Shown here in pieces: positions 1 through 13,087 of a DNA stretch of 64,000 nucleotides. A program made the position numbers and the translations under genes. The first letter of the stretch is position 1; every line of letters starts with the position of its first letter. The notes below the pieces were generated by a model. It was not told the origin of the DNA, did not search any database, and saw nothing but the letters and a program-made list of their open reading frames with translations. The DNA is from Herbiconiux flava (GTDB lineage Bacteria; Actinomycetota; Actinomycetes; Actinomycetales; Microbacteriaceae), in NCBI RefSeq assembly GCF_013409865.1, contig NZ_JACCBM010000001.1, forward strand, positions 3,410,001-3,474,000. Direction: 5' to 3'.

Positions 1-1248
1 CACCTCGGTGTCGGCCGCCGCAGCGACGGCCCCCGCCGTCGTCGGGGTTGCCGCGGGCGGGGTGGGAACGACGGGAGCGCTGGCGGCCCCGGCTCCCGAG
101 GCACTGCGAGCGGCCGCGCGGCGGGCGCGGCGGCGGCGGGACGCGCGGACGAGGGCCGTGACGAGGCTCGTCAGCAGCAGCACGGCCGTCACGAGGACGG
201 CCACCGCGAGCACGATCCAGAGCCACGGCGGCACCGCCGGCGACGCCGTCGCGGCCGGGAGGAGCGGTGCGGCAGCGTCGGCCGCCTGCACCGTCACCTC
301 CGTCTGCGCCACCGCGCCGGAGGCGGCACCGGTGAGGATGAGCACGTGGGTGCCGGCCCGAAGGTCCGCCGGAACGTCGAGCACCGCCGCGACCTCCCCC
401 GCCGCGCCCGCGACCAGCGGACCGACCGCCGCGACCCCGTCGTCGAGCGTCGCCACGACCTGCTCGCCGGGGGCGAAGCCGCGGCCGGCGAAGCTGAGCG
501 CGTTGCCCGCGATGGCGGTCGAGGCCGTGTACCCGACGCGCGCCGCCGACGCACCCGAGGCCGGAGCGGCGGCGGGCGCATCCGCCGAGCCCGCCGCAGC
601 ACCCGCCCCACCGGCAGCGGCCCCCGCACCCGCACCACCGGAAGCACCGGCCCCCGCCGCGAACGTGATCGGCGTGAACGTCTCGTTCCCGGCGTTCTTC
701 ACCCCGTGCGCCCCGATCGTGATGATCCCGCACTGCACCTCGCGGCAGTCCACCGAGCCGACGTCGCCGTTGCGGTCGCGGCTCTCGAAGCTCGCCCCGG
801 GGATGACGAGGTCGACGGTCCAGCCGCCCGCGGCGTCCATCACGGCGTTCGCGGCGTCGGCCGTGTCGCTGCCGGGGAAGGCGACAAAGCGCTGGAATCC
901 CGCGTTGTCCTTCGCCTCGCTGTCGGGCACGTAGCGGTAGTCGGCGCCGACCTCGCCGCCCTGGCTCGGCCGCCACGAGGCCGGGTCGACCCAGCCGAAG
1001 AGCACGTACACGCCGCCGAAGCCGCCCGTGATCGACTGGAACCCGCTGCCGGTGACCGTGACCGGCGTCGCATAGTCGGGATCGGCGGTCGCGGTGCCCT
1101 CGGCGTTCGCGACCTTCACCGAACCGGCCGCGTGCGCCGCCGGGGCGCTGAGGGGCGCGATCACCGCGGCCGCGACGAGAGCGCCGACGAGTGCGACGCC
1201 GGCGACGACGCCGGGAAGAACCGGCCGGCGGGAGCGGATGTCGGTCAT
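1..1248 (-). CDS. Heme-locus cell-surface protein, partial (C-terminus beyond left edge)
   Basis: The reading frame stays open to base 1, so 416 codons are seen and the C-terminus is missing. It starts with ATG at 1248, overlapping the stop of the ABC ATPase gene by 4 bp (ATGA), so it is the last visible gene of the heme importer operon. An N-terminal signal peptide (about residues 1-40) is followed by a beta-rich extracellular part containing VYVLFGWVDP and CGIITIGAHGVKN, an Ala/Gly/Pro-rich linker and a membrane segment near residues 338-362, then basic residues. This layout resembles the anchored HtaA-associated surface proteins of actinobacterial hmu/hta loci. Heme binding or relay to the substrate-binding lipoprotein is inferred from context; no clear full HtaA domain is seen. 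Confidence 0.7.
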   Translation of the reverse strand, partial: MTDIRSRRPVLPGVVAGVALVGALVAAAVIAPLSAPAAHAAGSVKVANAEGTATADPDYATPVTVTGSGFQSITGGFGGVYVLFGWVDPASWRPSQGGEVGADYRYVPDSEAKDNAGFQRFVAFPGSDTADAANAVMDAAGGWTVDLVIPGASFESRDRNGDVGSVDCREVQCGIITIGAHGVKNAGNETFTPITFAAGAGASGGAGAGAAAGGAGAAAGSADAPAAAPASGASAARVGYTASTAIAGNALSFAGRGFAPGEQVVATLDDGVAAVGPLVAGAAGEVAAVLDVPADLRAGTHVLILTGAASGAVAQTEVTVQAADAAAPLLPAATASPAVPPWLWIVLAVAVLVTAVLLLTSLVTALVRASRRRRARRAAARSASGAGAASAPVVPTPPAATPTTAGAVAAAADTEV

Positions 1249-2123
1249 GGGCGATTCCTCCGAGGAGACGTAGGGAGCGGGCCGGGCGACCGGGCCGGGC
1301 GCACGAGCAGCGTCCCGTCGACCCGGTGCACGAGGATCGGGTGCCGGTACACCGCGCTCAGCAGCGCCGCGTCGAGCGCCTCGACGGGCGCCCCGTCGGC
1401 CCGCACGCGCCCGCTCTCGAGCACGACGACGCGGGTGGCGTGCGCGGCCGCCAGGTCGAGGTCGTGCAGCACGACGACGGCCGATCCCCCGGCGTCGGTG
1501 TGGGCACGCAGGTGGCCGAGCAGCCGCTCCTGGTGCCGGATGTCGAGGCTCGCCGTCGGCTCGTCCAGCAGCACGAGCTCGCAGCCCTGCGCCCGCACCC
1601 GGGCCCACGCGGCGCGGGCCTGCTCGCCGCCCGAGAGCTCGGGCAGCCGGCGGTGCTGCAGCGCGCCGAGCTCGGCGTCGTCGACGGCGGCGTCGACCCG
1701 CTCCGACTCCTCGACCGGCGCGAGCGACGGCCACGGCGCGAGCCCCATCGCGACGACCTCGCGCACGGTGAACGGGAACGAGACGTCGTTCGACTGCGTC
1801 AGCACCGAGCGGATGCGCGCCAGATCCCCCGCCCGCCACGACGCCACGGCGCGGCCGTCGACCGCCACCCTGCCCGAGGTCGGCGTGACGTCGCCCGCCA
1901 GCACGTGCAGCAGCGTCGACTTGCCCGCCCCGTTCGGCCCGACGAGCGCGACGAGCTCGCCCGCGCCGATCCCGAGCGACACCGAGTCGAGGATCGCGCG
2001 CCCCTCCACCTCGAGCCCCACCCCGTCGGCCACGATCCGCGGCGCGACCGATGCCGCGCCGCCCCCGACGACCTCGGCCCCTGCTGCAGAGCGCGCCGCC
2101 ACCACCCCCCGCATCACGCCCAC
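1245..2123 (-). CDS. hmuV: Heme/iron-chelate ABC transporter ATP-binding protein (HmuV type)
   Basis: Cytoplasmic ATPase that would energise heme or iron-chelate import. The 292-residue protein carries Walker A VGPNGAGKST, the ABC signature LSGGEQARAAWA, Walker B LVLLDEPTASLD and an H-loop VVLHDLDLAAAHA, all in normal order and spacing for the FepC/HmuV family. It overlaps the upstream permease gene by about 10 bp and the downstream surface-protein gene by 4 bp, so translation is probably coupled. ATG at 2123 is used; an internal ATG at 2114 would also work. Expression should follow the iron boxes upstream of hmuT. The substrate (heme rather than a siderophore) is inferred from the neighbouring HtaA gene. 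Confidence 0.9.
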   Translation of the reverse strand: MGVMRGVVAARSAAGAEVVGGGAASVAPRIVADGVGLEVEGRAILDSVSLGIGAGELVALVGPNGAGKSTLLHVLAGDVTPTSGRVAVDGRAVASWRAGDLARIRSVLTQSNDVSFPFTVREVVAMGLAPWPSLAPVEESERVDAAVDDAELGALQHRRLPELSGGEQARAAWARVRAQGCELVLLDEPTASLDIRHQERLLGHLRAHTDAGGSAVVVLHDLDLAAAHATRVVVLESGRVRADGAPVEALDAALLSAVYRHPILVHRVDGTLLVRPARSPGPLPTSPRRNRP

Positions 2124-3262
2124 CCGCCCGACCGCCGCCGCGTGCGCCGGATCAGCCAGAAGAAGAACGGCCCGCCCACCAGCGCGGTGAGCATCCCGAG
2201 CGGCAGGTCGGCGTACGGCACCGCCGTGCGCGCCACCAGGTCGGCCGCGAGCAGCAGCAGCGCCCCGCCCAGCGCGCTCGCCACGATCAGCCGTCGGTGT
2301 CCCGGGCCGAGCAGCATCCGCATCAGGTGGGGCACCACGAGCCCCACGAATGCGACGATCCCGCAGAGCGCCACGGCCGCGGCCGTCAGGATCGCGATCA
2401 CCACGATCGCGATCACCCGCGTCGACTCCACCTTCACGCCCAGGTGCCTGGCCTGCCGCTCGCCCAGCGCCATCAGGTCGAGGCGCCGCGCCAGCAGCAG
2501 CGCGAACACCGTGCCGGCCAGGCAGATCGGCAGCACGATCGCCACGTCCTGCCAGCGGCTGCCGTTCAGCGAGCCGAGCTGCCAGAACACGATCTGCTCG
2601 CGCTGCTGCGTCGACGCGGCGAACATCAGGAACGCGATGCCGGCACCCGCCACCGCCGTCACCGCGATGCCCGTCAAGAGCAGCGTCACCACCTCAGTGC
2701 GCCCCCGCGACCGCGCGGTCAGGTACACCAGCAGCGTCGCCGCGAGCCCGCCCGCGAAGGCGAAGACCGGCGCGGTCAGGATGCCGAGGAACGTCGCCCC
2801 CAGCACGATCGCCGTGCTCGCCCCGAGCGCCGCCCCGGCCGACACCCCCACCACCCCCGGCTCGGCGAGCGGGTTGCGGAACACCCCCTGCATGACGACC
2901 CCGCCCACCGCGAGCGAGGCGCCCACGACCGCCGCCATGGCGATCCGCGGGAAGCGGATGGCCCACAGCGTGGCATCGGCGTTCGGATGCACGGGCACCG
3001 CCGCCACGGGCAGCACCGCCGGGGCGCCGACCCCGGTCAGCAGCTCGTTGCCGTGCAGCGCGAGCGACCCCACGATCTCCGGCACCGGTACCGGCAGCTG
3101 CCCGATGCCCGCCGAGACCACCGCGAGCACCACGACGCCGACGCCGAGCAGCAGCACCGTCAGCCGGTACCGGGCAGCGCGGGGCCCGGTCGGGACGACC
3201 CGGGGCCCAGGCGGAGGCGGGGGCGTAGTCGACACCGCCACCGGGGCGACCGTGGCGGTCAC
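2114..3262 (-). CDS. hmuU: Heme/iron-chelate ABC transporter permease, FecCD family
   Basis: Integral membrane permease of a BtuC/FecCD importer, 382 residues with about nine to ten hydrophobic segments after a Pro-rich cytoplasmic N-terminus. Family motifs include RFPRIAMAAVVGASLAVGG, the GVFRNPLAEPGVVGVSAGAA stretch that begins most FecCD proteins, and the C-terminal GIVAFVGLVVPHLMRMLLG, which contacts the ATPase. The GTG start at 3262 overlaps the hmuT stop as GTGA, the arrangement expected for a coupled operon. It works with the HmuT-like lipoprotein and HmuV-like ATPase on either side. A much longer open frame extends upstream on the same strand, but it runs antisense-like through hmuT in another frame and has no transporter features. 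Confidence 0.9.
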   Translation of the reverse strand: MTATVAPVAVSTTPPPPPGPRVVPTGPRAARYRLTVLLLGVGVVVLAVVSAGIGQLPVPVPEIVGSLALHGNELLTGVGAPAVLPVAAVPVHPNADATLWAIRFPRIAMAAVVGASLAVGGVVMQGVFRNPLAEPGVVGVSAGAALGASTAIVLGATFLGILTAPVFAFAGGLAATLLVYLTARSRGRTEVVTLLLTGIAVTAVAGAGIAFLMFAASTQQREQIVFWQLGSLNGSRWQDVAIVLPICLAGTVFALLLARRLDLMALGERQARHLGVKVESTRVIAIVVIAILTAAAVALCGIVAFVGLVVPHLMRMLLGPGHRRLIVASALGGALLLLAADLVARTAVPYADLPLGMLTALVGGPFFFWLIRRTRRRSGGWA

Positions 3263-4362
3263 CGGGCGGCATCCGGAGCGTAGAGCCCGACGGCGAGCGC
3301 CTCGAGCACCCGCGCGCTGTCGGGCCCGAAGCTGAGGATCTGCGAGTCGGGCATGTCGACGACCCGTCGGTGCTGCCCGGCCGGCGTCTGCTGCAGGGCG
3401 GGCACCGCCTCGAGCAGCCCGTCGACCCCGTCGACCGACTCGAGGCCGCCGGTCATCACGAGCACGAGGTCGGGCGCGGCCGCCACGAGCCCCTCGTCGG
3501 TGAGGGGCCGCATGCCGTTCCAGCCGATCTCGGCCGAGACGTCGATGCCGCCGAGCGCCGTGACGAGGTCGTCGGCGCCCGAGCCCTGGCCGAACAGGTA
3601 GTAGACGCCGGCCTGTCCGCGCACGTAGAGGAAGACGATACGCAGCCGCTCGGCGGGATCGGCGGGCGCGACGGCGGCGATGGCCGCGACGGCGGCGTCG
3701 ATCTCGGCCCCCGTGCGGGCGGCGAGCTGGTCGCCCCGCTCCGGCACCCCGAGCCCCGCGGCGACCTGCCCGATCAGCTCGCCGGTGCCCGCGAGCGAGC
3801 GGTGCGAGTCGACCACGACCACGGGCACCCCGGTGTCGCGCAGCTGCAGGATCGTGTCCCACGGACCCAGGCTCGTGTCGGTGACGATCACGGTCGGCGC
3901 CAGCGCGAGGATCGCCTCGGCGTTGAGGTCGTGCCCGTTCTGCGTCACGAGCGGCCGGTCGGCGATCTCGGCGAAGCCGCTCGAGACGTCGCGCCCCACG
4001 ACCTGCTCGCCGAAGCCCAGCTCGAACACGATCCGCGAGAGCGAGCCGTAGATGTCGAGGGCCAGGATGCGCGAGGTGTCGCTGACGGTGACGGCCGTCC
4101 CCTGGGCATCCGTCACCGTGTCCGGCAGCGCCTGCGCGGGCTCGGTGATCGCCTCGACGGGGCTCGCCGGGGCCGCGACGCTCGAGGGCCCCTCCCAGGC
4201 CTTGGGGCTCGCGACCGGGGTGACGTCGGCGAGGGCGGGAGTGGCCCGGCCGGCGTCGGTCGAGCCGTCGGCCGCGGTCGAGCATCCGGAGAGCAGAGCG
4301 AGACTCAGAACGGCGCCGGCGACGGCGAGGAGGGGGCGGGGCAGGGAGGTCACGGAATCCAC
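3259..4362 (-). CDS. hmuT: Heme ABC transporter substrate-binding lipoprotein (HmuT type)
   Basis: Binds heme at the outer face of the membrane and delivers it to the permease. The N-terminus has a lipoprotein signal with lipobox LLSGC, then a class III (PBP2/TroA-like) binding fold. VSDTSRILALDIYGSLSRIV, EQVVGRDVSSGF and the FLYVRGQAGVYYLFGQGSGA segment are typical of HmuT proteins, and the length (367 aa) is normal. The GTG at 4362 lies 7 bp from the first of two iron boxes; a second in-frame GTG at 4353 is an equally good start. It is the first gene of an operon with hmuU, hmuV and a surface protein. DtxR/IdeR repression in iron-replete cells is inferred from the boxes. Confidence 0.9.
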   Translation of the reverse strand: MDSVTSLPRPLLAVAGAVLSLALLSGCSTAADGSTDAGRATPALADVTPVASPKAWEGPSSVAAPASPVEAITEPAQALPDTVTDAQGTAVTVSDTSRILALDIYGSLSRIVFELGFGEQVVGRDVSSGFAEIADRPLVTQNGHDLNAEAILALAPTVIVTDTSLGPWDTILQLRDTGVPVVVVDSHRSLAGTGELIGQVAAGLGVPERGDQLAARTGAEIDAAVAAIAAVAPADPAERLRIVFLYVRGQAGVYYLFGQGSGADDLVTALGGIDVSAEIGWNGMRPLTDEGLVAAAPDLVLVMTGGLESVDGVDGLLEAVPALQQTPAGQHRRVVDMPDSQILSFGPDSARVLEALAVGLYAPDAAR

Positions 4363-4368
4363 TCTAGC

Positions 4369-4407
4369 TTTGGTTAGGCTTAACTTACTATGGTTAGGCT
4401 GTCCTAA
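4369..4407. promoter_or_regulatory. Tandem DtxR/IdeR-type iron boxes in the divergent heme promoter
   Basis: Two 19-bp sites, 4369-4387 and 4389-4407, each match 15 of 19 positions of the TTAGGTTAGGCTAACCTAA consensus as I recall it; both contain GGTTAGGCT. They lie side by side, one base apart, between hmuT (minus) and the HtaA gene (plus), so a dimer pair could repress both directions when iron is plentiful. Confidence 0.8.
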
Positions 4408-4444: not shown

Positions 4445-5890
4445 GTGGTTTCACGCAGCACTGTGGATTCGACCATCCCGAGGCGGGGGCGCACCGCCCT
4501 CCGCCGCTCCCTCGCCGTCGTGGCGGCATCCGCGCTCACCGCCGGCTTCGCCCTCACCGCGACCACCGCGGCGAGCGCCGCCCCCTCCGAGGGCACCATC
4601 ACCGACGCCTCCTTCACCTGGGGGCTCAGCAACGAGGCGGGCGGCGGGGCGTTCTTCGGCGGCTGCAACTTCCTCAGCGCGGGCACCGCGGGCGACACGG
4701 GCAGCTCGCGGGTGTGGACCGAGGCCGACGGCTTCTACTCCGCCTCCAGCGGCGACGTGAGCATCGTGAAGCCGGATGCGACGGGCGCCCTCGTGCCCAC
4801 GAGCTGGGCCACCAAGTGCCAGACGCCCGCCGGCACCCCCGTGTCGGCCGCCAGCACCTCGTCGCTGACCAAGAACGCGGTCGTCTTCGGCGGCGGCACC
4901 GGCACCGCGGCGGCGGACGGATCGGTGGAGGTCTCCTGGAACGGCTCGTTCACCGTCGCCTTCTACGGCGGCCTGACCTACTGGACGGCGTCGGACCCGG
5001 TGCTGACCCTCGACGCGGCCGGCAACGGCGAGCTCACCGCCACCGCGAGCGGCTACGGCACGAGCATGGAGGACCAGACCCAGTGGGTGCCGGTCGCCGC
5101 CCAGGAGATCGTGCTCGCCGACATCGCGGGCGCCTCCGTCGGCGACGAGGGCCTGACGGTCACCCCCGCCTACCTCGGCGTGCCGGTGACCACGAGCGGC
5201 ACGCCGCAGGCGACCACCGGCGCGAGCTGGGGATCGTTCCCGCAGAGCTTCGTCGACTTCCAGAACCTGACCGGGCAGTCGAGCTACTGGTACAGCTCGG
5301 GCGGATCGCGTGACGCCGCGAAGCCGGCCAGCCCGCTCGCGGTCGACTGGACGGTCGAGGGCGCGGTCGTGACCCCGCCCGAGGAGCCGGCTGCGGACGA
5401 GCGCGACATCGAGGTGACGGTGCCCACCGTCGTCACGCCCGAGCCCGAGGACGGCTCGTTCGGCTGGAGCTTCGCCGGCGGCGACGCGATCGCGCTCGGC
5501 ACCGCCACCCAGGCGGGCAGCACCTTCGTCGCCGAGGGCGCGATGACCCCGATCACGGTGACCGACACCCGCACCGGCGGCGCCTCGGCGTACCAGTGGA
5601 GCATCTCGGGCCAGGTCGCCGGCTTCACCTCCGGCACCGGCACGGCGGCCTTCGGGGCCGACGCGCTGGGCTGGACGCCGAGCGTGACCGGCGCGGGCAC
5701 CGGAGTCGCAGCGGGGGCCGCCGTGGCTCCGCAGCTGCAGGGCGGCCCCGGGCTCGCCAGCTCGGGCATCCTCGCGTCGAGCTCGGCCGCGTCGGGCGCC
5801 ACCATCGGGGCCGACCTCCGTCTGGTCATCCCGAGCTCGACCCCGGCGGGCGACTACACCTCGACGCTGACCATCACGGCGCTGAGCTAG
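4445..5890 (+). CDS. Secreted HtaA heme-binding domain protein with WxL-like C-terminal domain
   Basis: 481-residue exported protein. A signal peptide ends near ASAAPS (about residue 43). The first half is an HtaA domain (TWGLSNE, then WNGSFTVAFYGGLTYWTASDP), the domain that captures hemin in Corynebacterium HtaA/HtaB. From about residue 325 comes a separate beta domain with LGWTPSV, GLASSGILASSSA and a terminal PAGDYTSTLTIT. That is the pattern of the WxL surface domain, although the final WxL tripeptide is not intact. No LPXTG or membrane anchor is present. GTG at 4445 is preceded by AGAAAGG at 4431-4437. It is divergent from hmuT across two iron boxes and followed by a DUF916 gene, the usual partner of WxL proteins. 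The HtaA call is strong; the WxL call is moderate. Confidence 0.82.
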   Translation: MVSRSTVDSTIPRRGRTALRRSLAVVAASALTAGFALTATTAASAAPSEGTITDASFTWGLSNEAGGGAFFGGCNFLSAGTAGDTGSSRVWTEADGFYSASSGDVSIVKPDATGALVPTSWATKCQTPAGTPVSAASTSSLTKNAVVFGGGTGTAAADGSVEVSWNGSFTVAFYGGLTYWTASDPVLTLDAAGNGELTATASGYGTSMEDQTQWVPVAAQEIVLADIAGASVGDEGLTVTPAYLGVPVTTSGTPQATTGASWGSFPQSFVDFQNLTGQSSYWYSSGGSRDAAKPASPLAVDWTVEGAVVTPPEEPAADERDIEVTVPTVVTPEPEDGSFGWSFAGGDAIALGTATQAGSTFVAEGAMTPITVTDTRTGGASAYQWSISGQVAGFTSGTGTAAFGADALGWTPSVTGAGTGVAAGAAVAPQLQGGPGLASSGILASSSAASGATIGADLRLVIPSSTPAGDYTSTLTITALS

Positions 5891-5903
5891 CCGCTCGCAT
5901 CTC

Positions 5904-5957
5904 TCGGCCCGTCTCGGGCCGACCGGCAGGGGGCGGATGCGCGTTCCGCCCCCTGCC
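5904..5957. terminator. Two consecutive perfect hairpins between the HtaA and DUF916 genes
   Basis: Hairpin 1 pairs TCGGCCCG (5904-5911) with CGGGCCGA (5915-5922) around a 3-nt loop. Hairpin 2 has a perfect 13-bp stem (5925-5937 with 5945-5957) and a 7-nt loop. There is no U-run, so this could be a factor-assisted terminator or a processing/stability element that sets the ratio of the two gene products. Confidence 0.55.
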
Positions 5958-6020
5958 TCACCCCCACCTGCCCTGCCCCATTCCTCCCCCGCTCAGTCAG
6001 CCCAGTCAGCCCAGCCCAGG

Positions 6021-7088
6021 ATGCCCATGCCCTCGCTCCCGTTCCGCCTCGCCGTGGCGGCCCCCGTCGCCGCCCTCCTTGTGGCGGCCGCCCTGGCGCC
6101 CTCCGGCGCCGTCGCGGCAGCCGCGCCGGCCACCCCCGCCGCCGCACCCGTGGCGACCGCCGCCGACGCCGGCCCCAGCTGGAGCGTCGCCCCCGCCGAC
6201 CGCCCCCTCCCCGACGGCACCGCCGAGACCGGACGCGCCAACTTCGACTACGCCGTCGAACCCGGAGCCGTCATCGACGACGCCTTCGAGATCCGCAACG
6301 ACGGAGCCGTGCCGCTCGAGCTGCAGGTCTACGCGGCCGACGCCTTCACCACCCGCGAGGGCAGCATCGACCTCCTGCCCGCCGGCGAGCCCTCGGTCGA
6401 CGCCGGCACCTGGATCACGGTGGCCGTGCCCCAGGTCACCCTCCAGCCGGGCGAGACCACGGCGGTGCCCTTCCGCATCTCCGTGCCCGCGGATGCCCGT
6501 CCCGGCGACCACCCCGCCGGCCTGATCTCCTCCGCACTGACCGCGTCCGACTCGGCCACCGTGCAGGTCGACCGCCGGCTCGGCAGCCGCGTCTACCTCC
6601 GCGTCGACGGTGAGCTCACCCCGGCCGCGACGGTCACCGGCGTCAGCGTCGACTACTCCGGCAGCTGGAACCCGCTCGCCGTGGGCGCGCTCAACGTCGT
6701 CTACACGCTCGAGAACACCGGAGACACCCGGGTCACCGCGGTCTCCTCGGTCGCGGCCGGCGGACCGTTCGGCCTCGCGGGGGTCGCCGCGAGCGAGCAG
6801 CTCGCCGAGGTGCTCCCCGGCTCCGCGATCGAGGTGCGGCAGCGGCTCGAGGGCGTCGCGGCACTCGTCTGGCTGAGCGGCGCCGTGCGGGTGCAGCCGG
6901 AGGGCGTCGGTCTCGGCGGCGGGACGCTCGCACCGATCGAGGCGCCGTTCTCGTTCGCCGCCCTGCCGTTCGTTCCGCTGATCGCGCTGCTCGTCGTCGC
7001 GGTGCTCGTGCTCGTGCTCGCGATCCTGCTGATCGTGCGCACCCGTCGTCGCCGGGATCGGGGCCGGATGCCGGGAGAACCTGTCTAG
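6021..7088 (+). CDS. DUF916 (WxL-interacting) membrane-anchored protein
   Basis: Surface protein of 355 residues. A signal peptide (about 1-35) precedes a beta-sandwich region: ANFDYAVEPGAVIDDAFEIR, LQPGETTAVPFRISVPADA and RPGDHPAGLISS are typical of DUF916, described in Firmicutes as the peptidoglycan-binding part of WxL-interacting proteins. A single C-terminal membrane helix (about residues 315-340) and a basic RTRRRRDRGR tail follow. ATG at 6021 is chosen because it directly precedes the signal peptide; the frame is open further upstream but lacks a better start. It follows the HtaA/WxL-like gene on the same strand, separated by two hairpins, so the pair may form one surface complex that holds the heme receptor at the wall. 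Confidence 0.75.
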   Translation: MPMPSLPFRLAVAAPVAALLVAAALAPSGAVAAAAPATPAAAPVATAADAGPSWSVAPADRPLPDGTAETGRANFDYAVEPGAVIDDAFEIRNDGAVPLELQVYAADAFTTREGSIDLLPAGEPSVDAGTWITVAVPQVTLQPGETTAVPFRISVPADARPGDHPAGLISSALTASDSATVQVDRRLGSRVYLRVDGELTPAATVTGVSVDYSGSWNPLAVGALNVVYTLENTGDTRVTAVSSVAAGGPFGLAGVAASEQLAEVLPGSAIEVRQRLEGVAALVWLSGAVRVQPEGVGLGGGTLAPIEAPFSFAALPFVPLIALLVVAVLVLVLAILLIVRTRRRRDRGRMPGEPV

Positions 7089-11101: not shown

Positions 11102-13087
11102 ATGTCTCAACTTCGCAGTCGACGCATCGTGGTCGCCGTGGCTGGTGGCACCGTCGTCCTGGCGTGCGCGTCGCCCCTCGCGGCGAGCAGCGCCTCTGCC
11201 GGCAACGCCGTCTCCGCTCTGATCTCGATCGCGACTCCGGTGATCCCAGACCCGGCGCCCGTCGCGGTCATCGTCGACGGCGCGACCGGGCAGGCGTACG
11301 TCGCGAACACATTCGCCGACACCGTTTCCGTCATCGACACCATGACGCGGGAGTTGACGCAGGTCATCGTCGCCGGCCCGACTGGCATCGGGAGGGGCCC
11401 GAGCGGGCTCGCCAGCGATCCGGCTCATCATAAGGTCTACGTCGCCAACTACAACTCCGACAGCGTCTCGGTGATCGACACGTCGACGAACGCGGTGGTC
11501 ACCGTGATCCCCGCATCTGCGAGCGGCATTGGTGGCGGCCCCTCGGGGATCGTACTCGATCAGGAACTCGACAAGGCGTACGTCACCAACCTGAAAGACG
11601 GCACGGTCTCGGTCATCGACACGACTCGGGACAAGGTGACCCAGGTCCTGCCGCACGACTCCAAGGGGGGTATCGGCCGAGCGGCGAGCGGCATCGCCAT
11701 CGACACCGACCTGCACCGCGCCTACGTCGCCAACCTCCAGGACAACTCGGTCTCGGTCATCGACACGCGCGATGATGGTGTCATCTCCGTGATCCCACAG
11801 GCCGCCATGGGGATCGGTAAAGCTCCCCGACAGATAGCGGTCGACTCGTCACTTCATCGCGCCTTCGTGACGAACTCCGAAAGCGGCAGCGTTTCAGTCA
11901 TCGATACGACCTTGAACACGGTCATCTCGGTGATCTCCACTGGCGTCGGGCCGAATCCCGACAGCATCTCGTTCGATCCGGTCGGCGGGCAGGTGTGGGT
12001 CGATTCGGAGTCGCAGATCGCTGCGATCGACACGCGGTCGCTCGAGATCACCGGCACGATCAGGAACGGCGGAGAGAGCTACTTCGGAACGGGAATCCAG
12101 TCGATTGCGGCCGACACGGCGCACCGGAGGGCGTACGTCACCGGGAGCCGGTCGGCCACGGTGGCGGTGCTGGATCTGGACGTGACCGCGCCGCTCGCCC
12201 GACGGAGCGGTGACGACCGGTACGCGACCGCGGCTGGCGTATCGGCGTCCGAATTCGCACCCGGGGTCGCGACCGTCTACATCGCGTCCGGCGAGAACTT
12301 CCCCGACGCGCTCTCCGGGTCCGCGGTCGCGGGCAGTCGAGGTGTGCCGGTACTGCTCGCGACGAAGAACAGCATCCCGACAGCGACCGGTGCCGAGCTC
12401 GCCAGGCTCAAGGCGAAGCAGATCGTCGTGCTCGGCGGCACTGCGGCGGTCAGCGAGTCGGTCGAGCAGGCCCTCCGCTCCTACGGCCCGGTGACAAGAA
12501 TCGGCGGCGACGATCGGTTCGCGGTCTCGGCCGCGATCTCCCGGGAGAACTTCTCGGTCAATCAGCCCGTCGTGTACATCGCCTCCGGCGAGAACTTCCC
12601 CGACGCGCTCTCCGGGGGCGCCGCCGCCGCGAACATCGGGTCGCCCGTGCTCCTGGTGAATCGCGGCGCGATCCCGAAGCCCGTCGCCGACGAGCTGACG
12701 CGACTTCAACCGGGCCGCATCGTCGTTCTGGGCGGAGAGAATGCAGTCGCACCTGCCGTCGAAACCGCGCTCCAGGCGATCTCGCCGACCACCCGGATCG
12801 CCGGCGCCGACCGGTTCGAGGTCTCGGCGGCGATCTCGAGGACGACCTTCACAGCCGGAGCCGACGTGGTCTACCTCGCGTCGGGAACCGGCTTCGCCGA
12901 CGCACTGGCCGGCGGCCCAGCGGCCACCGTGAACGGCGCACCGATGCTCCTCGTCCGACCCGACGCCGTCCCGCCGGCGATCGCGGCCGAGGTGAAGCGC
13001 CTCGACCCCACCCGGATCGTCGTACTGGGAGGAACCCAAGCGGTTTCGGCTCAGCTCTCCACCCAGATCCGCGAGCTCCTGTACTGA
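11102..13087 (+). CDS. Secreted YVTN beta-propeller protein with three cell-wall-binding (CWB2) repeats
   Basis: 661-residue exported protein. After a signal peptide (cleavage near SASAGN) about six blades repeat the pattern KVYVANYNSDSVSVIDTSTN, the YVTN/surface-layer propeller. Residues about 365-661 hold three CWB2 (PF04122) repeats, each with RxxGxDRF/Y, VYIASGENFPDALSG and RIVVLGG. CWB2 repeats attach proteins non-covalently to secondary wall polymers. The ATG at 11102 follows GAGAGG, but TATTGT at 11090-11095 also sits at leaderless distance. A strong hairpin terminator follows. The segment uses more A/T-ending codons than its neighbours. Ligand unknown; adhesion or wall-associated binding is inferred. 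Confidence 0.88.
   Translation: MSQLRSRRIVVAVAGGTVVLACASPLAASSASAGNAVSALISIATPVIPDPAPVAVIVDGATGQAYVANTFADTVSVIDTMTRELTQVIVAGPTGIGRGPSGLASDPAHHKVYVANYNSDSVSVIDTSTNAVVTVIPASASGIGGGPSGIVLDQELDKAYVTNLKDGTVSVIDTTRDKVTQVLPHDSKGGIGRAASGIAIDTDLHRAYVANLQDNSVSVIDTRDDGVISVIPQAAMGIGKAPRQIAVDSSLHRAFVTNSESGSVSVIDTTLNTVISVISTGVGPNPDSISFDPVGGQVWVDSESQIAAIDTRSLEITGTIRNGGESYFGTGIQSIAADTAHRRAYVTGSRSATVAVLDLDVTAPLARRSGDDRYATAAGVSASEFAPGVATVYIASGENFPDALSGSAVAGSRGVPVLLATKNSIPTATGAELARLKAKQIVVLGGTAAVSESVEQALRSYGPVTRIGGDDRFAVSAAISRENFSVNQPVVYIASGENFPDALSGGAAAANIGSPVLLVNRGAIPKPVADELTRLQPGRIVVLGGENAVAPAVETALQAISPTTRIAGADRFEVSAAISRTTFTAGADVVYLASGTGFADALAGGPAATVNGAPMLLVRPDAVPPAIAAEVKRLDPTRIVVLGGTQAVSAQLSTQIRELLY

Follow-up and report, generated by a model that had tools for sequence, protein, structure and literature searches.

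The window analyzed here is a stretch of 64,000 nucleotides from Herbiconiux flava (contig NZ_JACCBM010000001.1, positions 3,410,001 to 3,474,000). It contains two consecutive genes on the + strand, which encode an HtaA-fold protein with a C-terminal WxL-like domain (protein 1) and a DUF916 protein of the WxLIP type; hmuT-, hmuU- and hmuV-like genes run divergently from this pair. An initial annotation had interpreted the pair as a WxL-style heme-capture complex under iron control. Our analysis confirmed the underlying observation and supports part of the interpretation. The features of the pair are:

4445..5890, + strand: HtaA-fold/WxL-like protein (protein 1), 481 amino acids, with an N-terminal signal peptide recognized by eye
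4589..5359, + strand: HtaA/CR-fold domain, residues 49-305, from the AlphaFold 2 (AF2) model, VIA-align to HbpA and HtaA, and conservation
5417..5887, + strand: WxL-like C-terminal domain, residues 325-481, from profile-profile and PDB sequence matches; a separate module in other proteins
5564..5599, + strand: WxL motif 1 (D374-x-R376 ... W385-S-I), with D in 78, R in 77 and W in 76 of 78 homologs
5666..5680, + strand: LGWTP element of the actinobacterial WxL-like domain, with L, G, W and P each in 78/78
6021..7088, + strand: WxLIP (DUF916) protein, 355 amino acids, with a signal peptide recognized by eye, two Ig-like domains and a C-terminal membrane helix
6969..7061, + strand: C-terminal transmembrane helix of the WxLIP, residues 317-347

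The 78 homologs form alignment A1: besides the query it has 77 out of 120 listed homologs (538 were found), without fragments, multi-domain proteins of greater length and a small number of full-length sequences. A second alignment (A2) combines the query with 84 of 106 sequences, 85 rows in all. When 53 WxL-like domains from the fetched loci were aligned, the D, R and W of motif 1 were invariant, together with LG and Y. The initial annotation had taken LGW(TPSV) as the WxL motif. This is the wrong tryptophan; LGW stands beside motif 1 (D-x-R...W385) in the aligned domains and was dropped as a candidate. In WxL domains of Firmicutes, Asp occurs at W-8 and Arg at W-6 (PMC9772566). This spacing is exact in the relative P0068, while a longer loop shifts it to -11/-9 in the window protein.

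The profile of the WxL-like domain (A3) was then compared with known WxL domains. Among 177,635 PDB sequences the first match, albeit a weak one, was the WxL chain 9i25_A, aligned on motif 1. An hhalign comparison of A3 with seven WxL domains from Firmicutes scored 88% for the 62 columns surrounding motif 1 (single-target E 3.1e-6). In the controls, two other alignments scored 0.1% and 1.4%, canonical HtaA domains 2.5% and the reversed A3 0.08%, and no value above 0.32% was obtained when the columns were shuffled 50 times. The reference has only seven rows, taken from plasmid records, because the plasmid searches yielded few WxL sequences from Firmicutes. The Pfam WxL model PF13731 matched 12 of the 78 relatives when E values up to 10 were admitted, the best being 2.5e-5. 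The list of 50 structural matches for the model of protein 1 does not include the WxL chain of 9i25; since re-alignment covered the Foldseek top 1000 only, this absence does not count against a WxL fold.

The partner protein is recognized by the DUF916 model PF06030 with 36 bits (cut-off 27.3). It also has the second Ig-like domain (DUF3324/HBD) and the C-terminal membrane helix, as the initial annotation had stated for the helix. A conserved stretch of WxLIP proteins, NQIDKxxxYFDLK (PMC10599100), falls in Pfam and PDB alignments where the window protein reads GRANFDYAVEPG; by eye only F-D and its neighbours agree.

The initial annotation had staked its reading on the WxL likeness of the C-terminal domain and on a conserved HtaA/DUF916 adjacency, and both were found. 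Of 199 genomes in the family, 69 had a match to A1, 55 to PF06030 (E 0.001) and 60 to the WxL-like profile (E 1e-6); the WxL-like domain was present in 53 of the 55 genomes with a PF06030 match. A WxLIP gene came next on the same strand for 40 of the 53 WxL-like open reading frames (ORFs) in the fetched loci by rule, and additionally for L074, which the rule missed because its WxLIP overlaps the WxL-like ORF. For window-type fusions of an HtaA fold with a WxL-like domain in Microbacteriaceae the count was 10/10. A second locus set with identified organisms was made from the best 80 of 199 places and comprises 74 loci; its selection favours full-length fusions, and some of its genomes also occur in the family set. 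It holds 52 fusion ORFs, of which 45 are followed by a WxLIP by rule and 46 when L184 is counted, where the WxLIP domain directly adjoins the fusion. Four fusions without WxLIP (L142, L153, L162, L193) lie at most 401 bases from the locus end; the remaining two are the second copy in L136, close to the limit of the fetched sequence, and L130, where a WxLIP is truly missing. Of the 52 fusions, 43 sit in loci with all three hmu-type genes.

Carriers of the fusion include Subtercola, Labedella, Microbacterium, Pseudoclavibacter, Arthrobacter and Cellulomonas, as well as Streptomyces, Tessaracoccus, Brachybacterium and metagenome-assembled genomes of Bifidobacteriaceae; a homolog of protein 1 with 99% identity is present in Herbiconiux sp. 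VKM Ac-2851. Across the class the WxL-like domain was found in 58 of 296 genomes (E 1e-10). The distances of 41 WxL/WxLIP pairs correlate (r 0.864), and when paralogs were re-paired within four genomes the true pairing was the best of 144. One hmu locus of Streptomyces has a second, divergent HtaA-fold/WxL protein across the hmu genes (L136:686-3487, - strand, a 934-amino-acid frame), with no WxLIP within the 686 bases fetched beyond it.

The N-terminal domain of protein 1 has the CR fold according to the AF2 model and its structural alignment to HbpA and HtaA. C74, C125 and Y174 are invariant in A1; Y283 is kept in 74/78 homologs. The HtaA identity given in the initial annotation holds at the level of the fold; a straight Pfam label as HtaA was dropped, with PF04213 finding nothing in protein 1 or its genome. 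One relative, P0078, passes PF04213 with 27.1 bits (cut-off 24). The hhalign comparison of the window-type HtaA domain with five canonical CR domains was weak (9.5%). The CR domains of C. diphtheriae all share three residues, namely the axial Tyr, the Ser that precedes it by four positions, and a propionate-binding Tyr (PMC12494546). By sequence-level equivalence, the Ser and Tyr positions of this motif (S-x3-Y) are occupied by E64 and G68, each in 77/78 homologs; among HtaA-fold domains of the fetched loci, 13/171 have S-x3-Y.

Two DtxR-like boxes precede the pair. They were scored against the DtxR consensus TWAGGTTAGSCTAACCTWA. The boxes and the divergent genes are:

4369..4387, strand not assigned: DtxR-like box 1, 16/19 to the consensus, in the intergenic region common to the divergent hmuT
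4389..4407, strand not assigned: DtxR-like box 2, 16/19 to the consensus
3259..4362, - strand: hmuT-like substrate-binding lipoprotein (PF01497, 4.9e-29), divergent from the gene pair
2114..3262 (start approximate), - strand: hmuU-like permease, a reading frame whose relatives adjoin hmuT/hmuV in related loci
1245..2123, - strand: hmuV-like ATPase (NF010068, heme ABC transporter ATP-binding protein, 264.7 bits, cut-off 261)
1..1248, - strand, continuing past the left window end: Ig-like-looking protein with a hydrophobic segment at the C-terminus, encoded by the next gene of the hmu row

No such boxes occurred in 100 shuffles of the window. With the strict consensus without W codes no site was found in the window at 3 mismatches; the W-coded consensus found two. 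The identical twin-box arrangement is present in L037 (G011) and in Herbiconiux gentiana (L121). Eight of 10 loci have boxes of at least 15/19 at the HtaA-WxL gene (L032-L039; L040 has none, and L041 is without the gene start), and 7 of 10 have them at other HtaA-fold genes (L042-L051). Of 40 loci with other WxL-like proteins only one has them; this one, L074, encodes an HtaA protein adjoining hmu-type genes. This distribution indicates that the boxes track the heme cargo and not the anchor. The iron control proposed initially is supported by these boxes, and as far as the sequence goes protein 1 is probably a surface protein under iron control.

Three further observations concern the neighbourhood. 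A second HtaA-fold protein, HtaA-2, is encoded just left of the window (L032:6599-about 7990, - strand); by eye its C-terminus is a membrane segment, and it is probably the membrane-held following step of heme transfer. The protein at 1-1248 contains a GVYV...SW.PS stretch that by eye also occurs between the HtaA-type and WxL-like domains of P0029, P0091, L074 and L178. The protein at 11102-13087 (+ strand) has what we take to be YVTN-like repeats followed by CWB2-looking cell-wall-binding units.

The WxL-like domain is also joined to HtaA domains of the canonical kind. The protein of L074 consists of a canonical HtaA domain (PF04213, 1.1e-19), a middle domain and the WxL-like domain, and is followed by WxLIP and hmu-type genes. 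The same layout with an adjoining WxLIP is present in L171, L178, L179 and L186, all four over the PF04213 cut-off. By eye these five proteins have S/N-x-x-x-Y after WG, with S in 4/5. Together with the window-type fusions, they show that hmu loci have combined two kinds of HtaA-type domain with the WxL-like anchor. The canonical HtaA-WxL proteins, beside WxLIP and hmu-type genes, are:

L074:1045-2847
L171:5687-7462
L178:11196-12920
L179:11205-12926
L186:11325-13025

Other cargo was seen as well. The anchor is combined with a purple-acid-phosphatase/metallophosphatase region in L052:3229-5091 and with a repetitive part without Pfam name in L072:4748-6139, each followed by a WxLIP. Proteins of L087, L089 and L090 (223-254 amino acids) have a signal peptide, a WxL-like domain and little else, resembling 'small WxL'; no WxLIP lies within the 9-10 kb fetched around them. 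There are seven copies of the WxL-like domain in genome G045 and nine in G171, and DUF916/WxLIP-type genes occur on the Clavibacter phaseoli plasmids NZ_CP040796.1 and NZ_CP040787.1.

From these data we consider it likely that the gene pair provides the heme-uptake locus with a surface module regulated by iron, in which the HtaA-fold protein is displayed via a WxL/WxLIP-type anchor and feeds HtaA-2 and HmuTUV. At low iron, a DtxR-type repressor would leave the twin boxes, so that the divergent hmuTUV operon and the gene pair would both be transcribed. The HtaA-fold/WxL-like protein would be secreted, and so would the WxLIP, which may be retained in the membrane through its C-terminal helix. 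We infer that the DUF916 domain would grip the WxL-like domain at the wall, with the HtaA-fold domain pointing outward. The latter could capture heme or a heme protein, and heme would be handed to membrane-anchored HtaA-2 and then to HmuT-HmuUV.

Several results weigh against this model. The match to 9i25_A has an E value of only 0.37. The second WxL motif is without W in 53/53 aligned domains, and a strict W-x-L at motif 1 is present in just 12/53 (otherwise W-x-I/V); the window protein has W-S-I at motif 1 and L-T-I-T-A-L at the place of the second. By the dual-motif definition this sequence is not a strict WxL domain. A Pfam scan of the window protein gave 0 families; four relatives scanned singly fall under the PF13731 cut-off (25 bits). 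The genome contains no small WxL partner, with a single A3 match and a single PF06030 match genome-wide. On the heme side, PF04213 has zero matches in protein 1 or elsewhere in its genome, and S-x3-Y occurs in 1/78 homologs, not in the window protein. In the 74-locus set the boxes give a looser picture: 27/52 fusions have one no more than 500 bases upstream of the HtaA domain, 14 have one only near hmuT and 11 at neither place. The runner-up re-pairing of paralogs is nearly equal to the true one (0.861 vs 0.864), and nearest neighbours of the WxL-like domain and the WxLIP agree in only 22/41 pairs. Finally, a fusion of Pseudoclavibacter helvolus (L130:9779-11548, + strand) has no WxLIP after it and no hmu genes in its 21 kb locus; it is a natural case for asking how the fusion protein is held.

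The solved fold nearest to residues 53-303 of protein 1 is HbpA, the hemoglobin receptor of C. diphtheriae (9bcj, 9bch), whose aligned chains of 188 and 198 residues are without a WxL-like part. This makes a heme-protein receptor a real alternative: the domain might seize a heme protein, as HbpA does hemoglobin, rather than act as a heme hemophore, and free heme would be left to other proteins of the locus. We regard this version as rather unlikely. The attachment could also be simpler than proposed. WxL domains bind peptidoglycan non-covalently by themselves (PMC5817068), and for 12 of the 53 WxL-like ORFs the gene that follows is not a WxLIP (13 by rule, which includes L074 with its overlap; L081, one of the twelve, is at a contig end). 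The WxL-like domain might therefore suffice, with the DUF916 protein being a separate surface structure or a folding helper and not a tether. The frequent adjacency, the co-variation of paralogs and a WxLIP-WxL complex in the PDB (9i25, judged from the entry title) argue against it, and we consider it unlikely. A chance neighbourhood of an unrelated Ig-like domain and a generic, functionally unlinked DUF916 protein would fit the commonness of Ig-like/pilin-like folds and the best Z for the C-terminal part (9.0, to CfaE; root-mean-square deviation 3.2 over 119 residues), but is highly improbable, being already disfavoured by the WxLIP adjacency in 46/52 fusions, the co-occurrence and the profile match with its shuffled controls.

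The model of an iron-regulated display module combines traits of two known systems. The WxL/WxLIP (Csc) clusters of Firmicutes (PF13731, PF06030; PMC10599100, PMC9772566) share with the window a secreted protein with a C-terminal WxL-type domain and D-x-R...W motif 1 and, next to it, a partner of the DUF916 type that has two Ig-like domains and a membrane helix. Unlike them, the window pair has lost the second WxL motif, has no small WxL partner in the genome, and carries an HtaA-fold outer domain in a heme-uptake locus with DtxR-like boxes. The Corynebacterium Hmu/HtaA/ChtA system (PF04213; PMC12494546) likewise has the HtaA/CR fold beside hmuTUV-type genes, DtxR-like boxes and a counterpart of HtaA-2 with its C-terminal hydrophobic segment. 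However, the CR proteins of C. diphtheriae are presumably each held by their own C-terminal helix (PMC12494546), while protein 1 has no helix, carries the WxL-like domain and is without the canonical axial Tyr motif.

The Firmicutes clusters are regarded as host-binding structures of unclear purpose and are described chiefly from Lactobacillales and Bacillales (PMC10599100, PMC9772566). More than 91% of 938 WxL sequences are from Firmicutes (PMC9772566), WxL is placed mainly in the same two orders by PMC5817068, and another source describes it in bee-gut lactobacilli. No description of HtaA and WxL together was found in the literature searched, most subscription papers being outside that scope; some actinobacterial proteins in public records carry the names 'WxL domain-containing' or 'WxL protein peptidoglycan domain-containing'.

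Tentatively, Actinomycetes may own a single-tryptophan WxL-like/WxLIP display system with many outer domains, into which heme loci would have plugged HtaA-type domains at least twice (canonical CR and HbpA-like). The HbpA-like version would then seize whole heme proteins, and the complex would be an iron-controlled nutrient-capture scaffold and not an adhesin. The presence of a WxL-type anchor in a heme-uptake locus that has DtxR-like boxes gives WxL complexes a testable job and extends them to actinobacteria. Such an anchor may also be a route for keeping heme receptors at the wall without a sortase or a membrane helix of the receptor itself.
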